In this document: piece by piece, positions 16,626 to 23,383 of the stretch
How the letters are laid out: each line of letters starts with the position of its first letter
Numbering within the stretch: the first letter of the stretch is position 1
DNA from: Lysobacterales bacterium 15-68-25
Lineage (GTDB): Bacteria > Pseudomonadota > Gammaproteobacteria > Xanthomonadales > Rhodanobacteraceae
NCBI GenBank assembly: GCA_002279065.1
Contig: NCKB01000017.1
Location: 1-53,157 of the forward strand
Length of the DNA: 53,157 nt
Direction: 5' to 3'
The notes under the pieces: generated by a model
What the model was told of the DNA's origin: nothing
The model's database searches: none
Seen by the model: the letters and a program-made list of their open reading frames with translations, nothing else
Made by a program: the position numbers and the translations under genes

Positions 16626-16991
16626 ATGATCGAGCAGATCACCGATCTTCCCGCCGGCGTGCTGGGCTTCCGCGCCCGCGGCCAGGTCACCGCGGCCGAC
16701 TACGAGAACGTGCTGGTTCCGGACGTCGAGGCCGCGTTCGCGATGAACCCCAAGCTGCGCCTGATGTACCACTGCGGCGAGGACTTCACCGGCTTCGACG
16801 CCAAGGCCGCCTGGGACGATGCCAAGCTCGGCATGCGCCATTTCAGCGGCTGGGAGCGGGTGGCGCTGGTCACCGACGTGGGCTGGCTGCGGGTGGCGGC
16901 GCGGGCGATGCGCTTCGCGATCCCGGCCGAGTTCCGCCTGTTCGCCAATGCGGAGTACGAGCAGGCGCGCGAATGGCTGCTGGCGCCGTGA
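16626..16991 (+). CDS. SpoIIAA-like (STAS-fold) protein
   Basis: A 121-aa cytoplasmic protein of the SpoIIAA-like/DUF3478 type. The pattern GFRARGQVTAADYENVLVP, then LMYHCGEDFTGFD and later ERVALVTDVGWLR and FRLFANAEYEQAREWL, matches this family, which has a STAS-like fold without the phosphorylatable Ser of true SpoIIAA. aaggagtg upstream supports the start. It stands alone between recJ and the asnB leader. Biochemical role is unknown; a soluble regulator or lipid-binding role has been guessed for the family. Confidence 0.82.
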   Translation: MIEQITDLPAGVLGFRARGQVTAADYENVLVPDVEAAFAMNPKLRLMYHCGEDFTGFDAKAAWDDAKLGMRHFSGWERVALVTDVGWLRVAARAMRFAIPAEFRLFANAEYEQAREWLLAP

Positions 16992-17017
16992 GCGGTATGG
17001 CCGTCCAAAAAAAGTTC

Positions 17018-17046
17018 TTGCACCGCATCAAAAGTCGTGATCTAGT
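17018..17046 (+). promoter_or_regulatory. Probable promoter of the asnL-asnB attenuator transcript
   Basis: TTGCAC (17018-17023) and TCTAGT (17041-17046) are separated by 17 nt, matching sigma70 consensus at four of six bases in each element. The predicted start of transcription falls at about 17052-17054, on or next to the ATG of the leader peptide at 17053. There is no Shine-Dalgarno sequence before that ATG, in agreement with a leaderless mRNA. Confidence 0.55.
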
Positions 17047-17052
17047 CGTCCC

Positions 17053-17181
17053 ATGACCCAGTCGTTCACCACCGCCGCCCGCTTTGCCGATGCCCTGCAT
17101 CGCGCGGCTGCGTGCGCCGCGAACGGCCTGAACAACCGCAATGGCAATAACAATCGCCTCACCGGGCGGGCCATCGCGTAG
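17053..17181 (+). CDS. Asparagine-rich leader peptide of asnB
   Basis: A 42-codon frame too short for ordinary gene calling. Residues 24-34 read NGLNNRNGNNN: seven Asn in eleven codons (24, 27, 28, 30, 32, 33, 34), exceptional for random sequence and just what is expected of a leader peptide sensing charged tRNA-Asn. It lies between a predicted promoter and an intrinsic terminator, 95 nt before asparagine synthetase. The codons after the Asn run (positions 17165-17172) form one arm of a predicted antiterminator. The peptide itself is probably not functional beyond its translation. No ribosome binding site is seen, so initiation may be leaderless. Confidence 0.85.
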   Translation: MTQSFTTAARFADALHRAAACAANGLNNRNGNNNRLTGRAIA

Positions 17182-17237
17182 ACGCAAGTTTCAGCACTAC
17201 ATACGCGAAAAAGGCCCGCCTAGTGCGGGCCTTTTTC
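17165..17237 (+). promoter_or_regulatory. Transcription attenuator of asnB
   Basis: Terminator: 13-bp stem 17207-17219 / 17225-17237 (gaaaaaggcccgc / gcgggcctttttc) with a 5-nt loop and further T residues. Antiterminator: ggcgggcc at 17165-17172 pairs perfectly with ggcccgcc at 17213-17220, which removes the 5' arm of the terminator. A ribosome stalled on the Asn codons (ending 17154) leaves the first arm free and permits readthrough. A ribosome reaching the stop at 17179 covers it and lets the terminator form. Geometry fits classical amino-acid attenuation. Confidence 0.85.
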
Positions 17238-17276
17238 TTTTCCGATCCATCGTTTTTCGAGAGAAGGGGTTTGGCC

Positions 17277-18950
17277 ATGTGTTCGATCTTCGGGATGTTC
17301 GACCTGCAGCCGGGTGACGATCTCGCTGCGTTGCGCCGGCAGGCGCTGGAGCTGTCGCAGCGCCAGCGCCATCGCGGCCCGGATTGGAGCGGTGTCTACG
17401 TCGACGCCGGGGTGATCCTGGTGCACGAGCGCCTGGCCATCGTCGATCCGGCCAGCGGCGCGCAGCCGCTGCGCTCGCGCGACGGCGCGCTGGCGCTGGC
17501 CGTGAACGGCGAGATCTACAACCACCGCGAACTGCGTGCGGCCAGCGACTACGACTTCACCACCGGCTCGGACTGCGAGGTGATCAACGCGTTGTATCGC
17601 GACCTTGGAGGCGATGCCTTTGTGCAGGAGGGCGTGGGCAAGCTCAACGGCATCTTCGCCTTCGCTTTGTGGGATGGCGCCAGCCAGCGCTATGTGATCG
17701 CACGCGATCCGATCGGCGTGTGCCCGCTGTACTGGGGTCACGACGGGGAAGGGCGCCTGTGCGTAGCCTCGGAGATGAAGGCGCTGGTCGGGGTGTGCAA
17801 CGACGTGGCCGCGTTCCCGCCGGGCCATGTCTACGACAGCGCCACCGGCGAGCTGACCCGCTACTACGTCAAGGGCTGGCGCGACTACGAGGCGACCAAG
17901 GGACAGGGGCCGGACGGTCTGCGCGAGGCGTTCGAGCAGGCCGTGCATCGCCAGCTGATGACCGATGTGCCCTATGGCGTGCTGCTCTCCGGCGGACTGG
18001 ATTCCTCGCTGGTCGCCGCCTGCGCCGCCCGCTTCGCCCGCGAGCGCATCGAGGACGACGATCGCTCGGAGGCCTGGTGGCCGCGCCTGCACTCGTTCGC
18101 GATCGGGCTGGAGGGCTCGCCGGACCTGGCCGCCGCGCAGGTCGCCGCCGATGCGCTGGGCACCGTGCACCACGGCTTCGTCTACACCTTCTGGGAAGGC
18201 CTGGACGCGGTGCCCGAGGTGATCCGCCACCTGGAAACCTATGACGTCACCACCATCCGCGCCGCCACGCCGATGTACCTGCTGGCCCGCCGGATCAAGG
18301 CGATGGGGGTGAAGATGGTGCTCTCCGGCGAGGGCTCGGACGAGCTGTTCGGCGGCTATCTCTACTTCCACAAGGCGCCGTCGGCCGAGGCCTTTCACGA
18401 GGAGACCGTGCGCAAGCTCGACGCTCTGCACAGCTACGACTGCCTGCGCGCCAACAAGGCGATGATGGCCTGGGGCGTCGAGGCCCGTGTGCCGTTCCTG
18501 GACCTGGAGTTCATCGACGTGGCGATGGGCCTGGACGCCGCCCACAAGATGGCTGGCGGCGGAAAGATCGAGAAGCACGTGCTGCGCGCGGCCTTCGACG
18601 GCGCGCTGCCGAAGGAGATCCTGTGGCGGCAGAAGGAGCAGTTCTCCGACGGCGTCGGCTACGGCTGGATCGACGGGCTGAAGGCACACGCCGAGCAGGA
18701 AGTCAGCGATCGCGAGTTCGCCGCTGCCGCCTCGCGTTTCCCGTTCAACACGCCGGCGACCAAGGAGGCCTATTTCTACCGCCGCATCTTCGAGCAGTTC
18801 TATCCGGGCGAGGCCTGCGCGGCGACGGTGCCGGGCGGCAAGTCGATCGCCTGTTCGTCGCCGGCGGCGCTGGCATGGGACCCGGCCTTCGCCGCGATGG
18901 CCGATCCGTCGGGCCGGGCCGTGCGGGGTGTGCACAGCCAGGCGTTGTAA
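17277..18950 (+). CDS. asnB: Asparagine synthetase B (glutamine-hydrolysing)
   Basis: Makes asparagine from aspartate, glutamine and ATP. The 557-aa protein starts MCSIFGMF, leaving Cys2 as the N-terminal nucleophile of the class II glutaminase domain once Met is removed; this fixes the start at 17277. The N-terminal domain has HRGPDWSG, HERLAIVDP and VNGEIYNH. The synthetase domain has the PP-loop GVLLSGGLDSSLVA and GEGSDELFGGYLYF. Length equals E. coli AsnB. The upstream Asn-rich leader and attenuator predict induction when charged tRNA-Asn is scarce. The convergent neighbour ends 7 nt beyond its stop, without an obvious terminator. Confidence 0.97.
   Translation: MCSIFGMFDLQPGDDLAALRRQALELSQRQRHRGPDWSGVYVDAGVILVHERLAIVDPASGAQPLRSRDGALALAVNGEIYNHRELRAASDYDFTTGSDCEVINALYRDLGGDAFVQEGVGKLNGIFAFALWDGASQRYVIARDPIGVCPLYWGHDGEGRLCVASEMKALVGVCNDVAAFPPGHVYDSATGELTRYYVKGWRDYEATKGQGPDGLREAFEQAVHRQLMTDVPYGVLLSGGLDSSLVAACAARFARERIEDDDRSEAWWPRLHSFAIGLEGSPDLAAAQVAADALGTVHHGFVYTFWEGLDAVPEVIRHLETYDVTTIRAATPMYLLARRIKAMGVKMVLSGEGSDELFGGYLYFHKAPSAEAFHEETVRKLDALHSYDCLRANKAMMAWGVEARVPFLDLEFIDVAMGLDAAHKMAGGGKIEKHVLRAAFDGALPKEILWRQKEQFSDGVGYGWIDGLKAHAEQEVSDREFAAAASRFPFNTPATKEAYFYRRIFEQFYPGEACAATVPGGKSIACSSPAALAWDPAFAAMADPSGRAVRGVHSQAL

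Positions 18951-21865: not shown

Positions 21866-23383
<1,518 letters not shown>

Follow-up and report, generated by a model that had tools for sequence, protein, structure and literature searches.

The window analysed here, a stretch of 53,157 nucleotides, carries a gene for asparagine synthase B, asnB (17277-18950, + strand, 557 aa). The encoded protein scores 846 bits with the AsnB model NF006949 (cut-off 499), which bears out the asparagine synthetase that an earlier note on this DNA had placed behind a leader. A Shine-Dalgarno-like sequence, AGAAGGGG, can be read by eye ahead of it (17262-17269, + strand). Between the end of a SpoIIAA-like gene (16991) and the first base of asnB (17277) sits a short open reading frame of 42 codons on the + strand (17053-17181; MTQSFTTAARFADALHRAAACAANGLNNRNGNNNRLTGRAIA), whose mRNA is probably leaderless, with a predicted start at the A of the ATG or next to it. 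Translation of this leader ORF reproduced the 42-codon frame and all seven asparagines that had been described, at positions 24, 27, 28, 30, 32, 33 and 34. Seven of eleven codons (24-34; 17122-17154, + strand) therefore specify Asn, and these regulatory codons are the predicted sites of ribosome stalling.

Such a density of Asn codons is exceptional for this DNA. When all six frames of the window were read, stretches of eleven codons with at least five Asn codons occurred only at the leader ORF. When the 300 nt ahead of asnB were dinucleotide-shuffled 5000 times, six Asn per eleven codons was never reached and five was reached in four cases, compared to seven in the real sequence. Written as a degenerate pattern, the arrangement of the Asn codons occurs a single time in the 3.9-Mb genome.

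Lasso cyclases are homologues of asparagine synthetases, and the lasso precursors are encoded by short ORFs beside them. The leader ORF might thus encode a precursor peptide, for a lasso peptide or another modified product, with the asparagine-synthetase homologue as its cyclase, and both the position of the short ORF beside such a homologue and a weak match to the lasso-cyclase model NF033535 would agree with this. However, that match reaches 123 bits where 525 are needed, as against 846 with the AsnB model and its cut-off of 499. The five neighbours scanned encode a SpoIIAA-like protein, RecJ, an aspartyl-protease-like protein, a peptide-chain release factor and a twin ABC-ATPase protein, with no lasso protease among them, and the alternative helices described below are not expected for a precursor gene. 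Because of the cyclase score and the unrelated five neighbours we rejected a lasso peptide cluster, and a precursor function of the leader ORF is extremely improbable. In the same region, a frame of 509 codons that lies downstream of the gene for the release factor gave an AspRS-like match (TIGR00459, below cut-off) at 22058-23365 (+ strand); this frame may encode a lysyl-tRNA synthetase.

An intrinsic terminator had been claimed between the leader and asnB, and a hairpin with a 13-bp stem, a loop of 5 nt and TTTT behind it was indeed found there, recognised by sequence and covariation (17207-17237, + strand). A simple consensus scanner reported neither a terminator nor a promoter between 16900 and 17400. 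In our reading it missed the hairpin because it requires five or more T behind the stem; here, the T run is taken up by pairing with an A run, which leaves only TTTT. The arms proposed for an antiterminator could be confirmed: GGCGGGCC (region 2, 17165-17172, + strand), the 5' arm that lies inside the leader ORF, is the exact complement of GGCCCGCC (region 3, 17213-17220, + strand), which serves the antiterminator as well as the terminator, there as part of the 5' arm, and contains the hairpin's 5' core. The gap between Asn codon 34 (17152-17154) and region 2 is 10 nt, the same value as noted before. The antiterminator appears to be composite, as a second helix of 4 bp, GCGU/ACGC, can be added to the 8 bp; its 5' side (17176-17179, + strand) overlaps the stop codon, and its 3' side (17203-17206, + strand) is seen in the alignment to be conserved within the non-coding spacer.

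The earlier note had proposed as a check that the Asn codons be sought in relatives, and these are kept, at all 77 testable named loci of the own family, the Rhodanobacteraceae, and in three families. The named loci, taken as the best 80 of 484 in a protein search for asnB, belong to Rhodanobacter, Dyella, Frateuria, Fulvimonas, Dokdonella and MAGs; the closest relative among them is Dyella lutea (Rhodanobacteraceae, Lysobacterales), with an asnB that is 98% identical. The leader was found within 420 nt of asnB at 76 of the 80 loci and at -444 at L068, and has 3-8 Asn per eleven codons at the testable loci. The remaining three (L052, L053, L084) have upstream sequences too short to show a leader and stand outside the 77, and at L052 and L053 an apparent 3' part of the terminator is still visible.

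An order-wide sample of 150 genomes, 97 of which have an asnB at E <= 1e-150, allows a broader view. Among the asnB-bearing genomes a leader precedes the gene in 22 of 23 Rhodanobacteraceae, in 26 of 27 genomes of a second family (probably the Lysobacteraceae) and in all three of a third. The two leader-negative genomes, one in each of the first two families, harbour divergent asnB copies of 65% identity. Four further families (f5, f6, f8 and f10) showed no locus with more than four Asn per eleven codons in the 37 of 44 loci that were read. The asnB homologues of f8 and f10 are about 60-72% identical, and none of the 35 loci (of 42) that were read there has a leader, which points to a gain or loss of the element within the order. 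Class-wide, asnB was detected at E <= 1e-180 in only two of 281 genomes outside the Lysobacterales (G260 and G419), and no Asn-rich leader was seen by eye in the 300 nt upstream of these two genes.

For the following comparisons 129 loci were analysed, 100 from Rhodanobacteraceae, 26 from the second and three from the third family, of which 121 are distinct (92, 26 and three). Left out were L001 (a repeat of the locus in the window), L005 (its leader is the same as that of L008), L052, L053, L084 and L068, as well as L156 and L165, which have no leader. All 129 have at least three Asn per eleven codons and 119 have at least five; exactly three were counted at three loci. Within the Rhodanobacteraceae the peptides share the Asn run (e.g. 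NNNRANNNANRWRARA and LNNNNANNNTRIDGWAGV) and a conserved C-terminal arm, and their first halves are variable. A terminator was found at all 129 loci with our own hairpin finder, which was run without a null, and by our own count ten of these terminators have four or fewer T after the stem. The distance from terminator to asnB amounts to 100-200 nt or more at some loci. Repeat-like sequence (ATGGCCATGGATGGCCGGTA and similar) was observed between terminator and asnB in several Rhodanobacteraceae: it extends from about -380 to -40 of asnB at L068 and follows directly after the terminator at L030, L036, L051, L060, L064 and L072.

Upstream of the leader a putative promoter can be recognised by eye (17018-17046, + strand), consisting of TTGCAC (17018-17023), a spacer of 17 nt and TCTAGT (17041-17046); as we read it, the scanner missed these hexamers because they fall short of its 9-of-12 rule. 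Between the end of the best-scoring -10-like hexamer and the leader ATG lie 6 or 7 nt at 89 of 100 loci of the Rhodanobacteraceae, 24 of 26 of the second family, for which leaders of at least 18 codons were searched, and all three of the third. A promoter score of at least 7 was reached at 90/100 and 7/26 loci of the first two families, versus 72 of 1020 other ATGs, a comparison that favours the leader ATG since it had been picked as the best-scoring one in frame. An SD-like 4-mer precedes the leader ATG at only 4 of 129 loci. Ahead of asnB, an SD-like motif from a wider list occurs at 112 of the 129. The promoter-like spacing together with the rarity of SD-like sequences suggests that the leader mRNA is probably leaderless, the first nucleotide of the transcript probably lying at or near the A of the leader ATG.

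For a count of codons at the Asn columns, five sequences with an extra or missing codon were excluded. In the 73 sequences of equal spacing these columns contain AAC or AAT and not a single Lys codon, as would be expected for selection on the amino acid. Among the 16 codons that end the leader, mismatch amounted to 0.33, 0.31 and 0.288 at codon positions 1, 2 and 3; the third position is thus the least variable, unlike the usual coding pattern. Support for coding therefore comes from the lack of Lys codons at the Asn columns and not from this comparison of positions. In the leaders of the Rhodanobacteraceae 231 of 536 Asn codons are AAT, as against 85 of 580 in the asnB genes (Fisher p = 2.5e-26), so that the leaders favour a codon which the asnB genes avoid.

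These codon data also bear on the nature of the signal. The leader could be translated and yet respond to something other than the charging of tRNA-Asn, either arrest caused by the Asn-rich nascent peptide itself or a general slowing of leaderless translation. Arg and Ala codons are recurrent in the leaders too, and a likely leaderless initiation could couple the switch to the conditions of initiation. On the other hand, residue order and number of Asn vary between the families while Asn richness is retained, which fits a counting of codons better than a specific arrest peptide, and the enrichment of AAU fits a dependence on decoding speed. We regard arrest or slow-down as very unlikely compared to a sensing of tRNA-Asn charging.

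Both helices were examined in an alignment of 78 sequences from Rhodanobacteraceae. Covariation of both stems had been put forward as a further check, and the outcome differs between the two: the terminator covaries within the family, and the antiterminator does not, its two-sided support coming from differences between families. In the terminator helix 97.5% of the cells are paired and 80 cells are changed on both sides; the number of these changes and the covariation score lie above all 500 shuffles, while the number of pairs with a two-sided change (4 of 12) does not exceed them. For the antiterminator, 97.6% of the cells of the 8-bp arm and 98.7% of those of the GCGU/ACGC helix are paired, and the whole structure reaches 98.0% as against 23-47% when one side is slid. 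Its changes in these 78 sequences are one-sided only, with no two-sided pair, and the covariation measures are not above shuffles; within the Rhodanobacteraceae it is therefore conserved, not covarying. Two antiterminator pairs are broken at L060. RNAalifold predicted from this alignment the terminator and a small helix at columns 60-62/69-71, but not the antiterminator. Since the terminator is what one would expect as the stable end state of folding, the antiterminator was examined as a predefined structure.

Comparing the families gives a different picture. In the second family AACCCGCATC occurs in the terminator at 17 of 26 loci and CCGATGCGGG in the leader at 15, both together at 14. Duplexes of a leader with its own terminator have mean energies of -21.9 kcal/mol in the Rhodanobacteraceae and -21.4 kcal/mol in the second family. 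When partners are swapped the duplexes weaken to means of -14.1 (Rhodanobacteraceae leader with terminator of the second family) and -16.2 kcal/mol (the reverse), whereas swaps between the Rhodanobacteraceae and the third family change little (-21.2 and -22.0 kcal/mol). The pair adjoining the common core is G-C at 82 and G-U at 17 of 100 loci of the Rhodanobacteraceae; in the second family it is U-A at 19 of 26 and mismatched at 6. With the register re-chosen in every shuffle, arms of the same locus pair at a mean of 9.1 of 12 positions versus 8.64 (sd 0.08) for shuffled partners, a small difference that none of 500 shuffles matched. Ancestry is ignored in all these between-family counts. Taken together, the data support that antiterminator and terminator arms differ together between families, although this two-sided support corresponds to few independent events at the family level; because the third family resembles the Rhodanobacteraceae, the contrast is essentially one of these two against the second.

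A covariance model built from the 78 sequences was searched against the 150 genomes of the order. At E < 1e-7 it gave 26 matches, one per genome, all directly upstream of asnB by their coordinates. They comprise 22 Rhodanobacteraceae, as expected from a model built on this family, all three sites of the third family and one of the second, the other 25 sites of which fall short of this threshold. Among the matches listed, most of the weaker ones cover the terminator alone. Weak full-length matches away from asnB, of about 29-31 bits, were observed at G062:C60:7878-8000, G042:C6:236771-236889 and G041:C11:89051-89169; they may be chance or other attenuators.

The restriction of the strong matches to asnB bears on a simpler explanation, that a conserved gene for a small protein, complete with a terminator, stands by chance before an unregulated asnB that has its own promoter. 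The long gaps between terminator and asnB at some loci, 100-200 nt or more, would indeed leave room for another promoter. But a model whose strong matches lie only before asnB, and peptides that conserve the Asn run and the C-terminal arm and vary in the first half, are difficult to reconcile with a chance neighbour. Furthermore, a plain terminator has no need of a complementary segment that differs along with it between families, as region 2 does. The chance arrangement is accordingly a very remote prospect, and regulation of asnB by the leader is the reading that we follow.

Whether the distances would allow ribosomes to choose between the helices was examined by folding, with a ribosome taken to shield some 10 nt past its A-site codon. 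For a ribosome positioned on the stop codon, folding predicts the terminator at 120 of 121 distinct loci. If the ribosome stands instead at the second-last Asn codon, region 3 finds its partner in the leader ORF at 121/121 loci, but so it does in 799 of 1210 controls with shuffled leader tails, and this result is thus one of consistency and not proof. At the last Asn codon such pairing is found at only 37 of 92 loci of the Rhodanobacteraceae, and at 26/26 and 3/3 of the second and third families. The mean energies in the Rhodanobacteraceae are similar, -26.4 kcal/mol for the segment with the antiterminator and -25.4 kcal/mol for the terminator hairpin, and therefore the order of synthesis should decide the outcome, as in classical attenuators. 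The locus shows the anatomical features of a ribosome-mediated attenuator, and its geometry may be compatible with one.

Comparison of sequences shows a leader, its Asn codons, a terminator helix, a conserved antiterminator complementarity, a promoter-like spacing and an association with asnB; from these we infer a transcription start, translation, stalling, termination and a response to asparagine, in the following way. RNA polymerase would initiate on the leader ATG or right beside it, and ribosomes would load on the leaderless mRNA. If asparagine is plentiful, the ribosome would pass the Asn codons, reach the stop codon and cover region 2 (17165-17172), whereupon region 3 would pair with region 4 and the terminator would halt transcription ahead of asnB. 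If charged tRNA-Asn is scarce, the ribosome would stall within the Asn run and leave region 2 free; region 2 could then pair with region 3, with help from the GCGU/ACGC helix, while region 4 has yet to be synthesised, so that no terminator would form and asnB would be transcribed. On these grounds the attenuator interpretation given in the earlier note is supported, and we hold it very likely that the element is a ribosome-mediated transcription attenuator which senses asparagine via the charging of tRNA-Asn.

The gene content of the genome agrees with such a signal. AsnRS is present (632 bits, above cut-off) and gatB gave no match in this genome, which means that Asn-tRNA should not be made by the transamidation route, as judged from these gene searches, and that free asparagine should set the charging of tRNA-Asn. 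An AsnRS match is absent in eight of the 150 genomes of the order, all eight outside the three families with the leader. No match to asnA was found in the genome either. A second glutamine-hydrolysing gene of the asparagine-synthase family was observed at G000:C4:108409-110154 (L002), above the cut-off of TIGR01536 and below those of the XrtA-type amidotransferase and AsnB models; asnB is therefore perhaps not the sole source of asparagine.

A switch for asparagine would extend amino-acid attenuation by a new specificity and would explain the control of asnB in the Lysobacterales. The three families would represent a natural experiment, in which the logic is kept while the peptide and, in one family, both helices are rewritten. 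The probable leaderless start further raises the question of how leaderless initiation keeps the ribosome in step with RNA polymerase. A description of an Asn leader before asnB was not found in the open-licence literature searched, and such a leader may therefore be new. The available parts of PMC2965389, PMC5009743, PMC10219788, PMC3771888, PMC7298713, PMC1262725, PMC8632094 and PMC2311275 do not mention such a leader. According to the accessible part of one of these studies, the Xanthomonas asparagine synthase gene AsnB2 was tested for regulation by the small RNA sX13, with ratios of 1.0 (PMC3771888). We consider it probable that this is the first described Asn-specific ribosome-mediated attenuator, that it is present in at least three families of the Lysobacterales on a leaderless leader mRNA, that its terminator and the antiterminator in the coding region were rewritten together between families, and that the AAU bias heightens its sensitivity.

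No Rfam family reached its threshold in the window, and in 20 of 29 relatives from the second and third families (19 and one) none was found at E 0.01. Over the element itself there are weak matches to Thr_leader (RF00506, 26.6 bits, gathering 55) and Trp_leader (RF00513, 23.3 bits, gathering 41), which perhaps reflect the same architecture. T-box RNAs specific for tRNA-Asn occur before Asn-related genes and sense charging directly, without a leader peptide, by a choice between terminator and antiterminator. The charging of tRNA-Asn is also the signal proposed here, whereas a leader peptide distinguishes the present element from them. A T-box riboswitch was rejected: the window gave none at gathering score, and 16990-17300 showed no match even with E relaxed to 5.

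The closest parallel for the start of the transcript comes from Sinorhizobium meliloti, which belongs to a different class of Pseudomonadota. As far as the available part of the report goes, the 5' end of its trpL attenuator RNA is the ATG of the leader ORF, so that there too a leaderless attenuator (in our case a probable one) lies ahead of an amino-acid biosynthesis gene (PMC7298713). The S. meliloti leader has Trp codons, precedes trpE(G) and encodes 14 aa, against Asn codons, asnB and 42 aa here (PMC7298713, same part). The S. meliloti products rnTrpL and peTrpL are reported there to act in trans (PMC7298713, same part). Since the architecture is shared, the released leader RNA or peptide could likewise act elsewhere in the organisms studied here; the N-terminal half of the peptide is, however, not conserved, and we think a role in trans hardly likely compared to attenuation in cis.

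The well-known ribosome-mediated attenuators are the trp, his, thr, leu, ilv and phe leaders of E. coli, and the known specificities make up a short list of Trp, His, Leu, Ile/Val, Thr and Phe. To these, Cys leaders have been proposed for actinobacteria, according to the part of that study available (PMC1262725), and the E. coli trp attenuator is also described in the accessible part of PMC7298713. Like the E. coli leaders, the present element has a short ORF in which codons cluster for the amino acid that the downstream gene produces, antiterminator and terminator structures that exclude each other, and a region 2 that lies close downstream of the regulatory codons and that a ribosome reaching the stop codon would mask. 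It differs from them in that asparagine would be the amino acid sensed, that the regulated unit is apparently the single gene asnB, that region 2 lies inside the ORF, and that the leader mRNA is probably leaderless.
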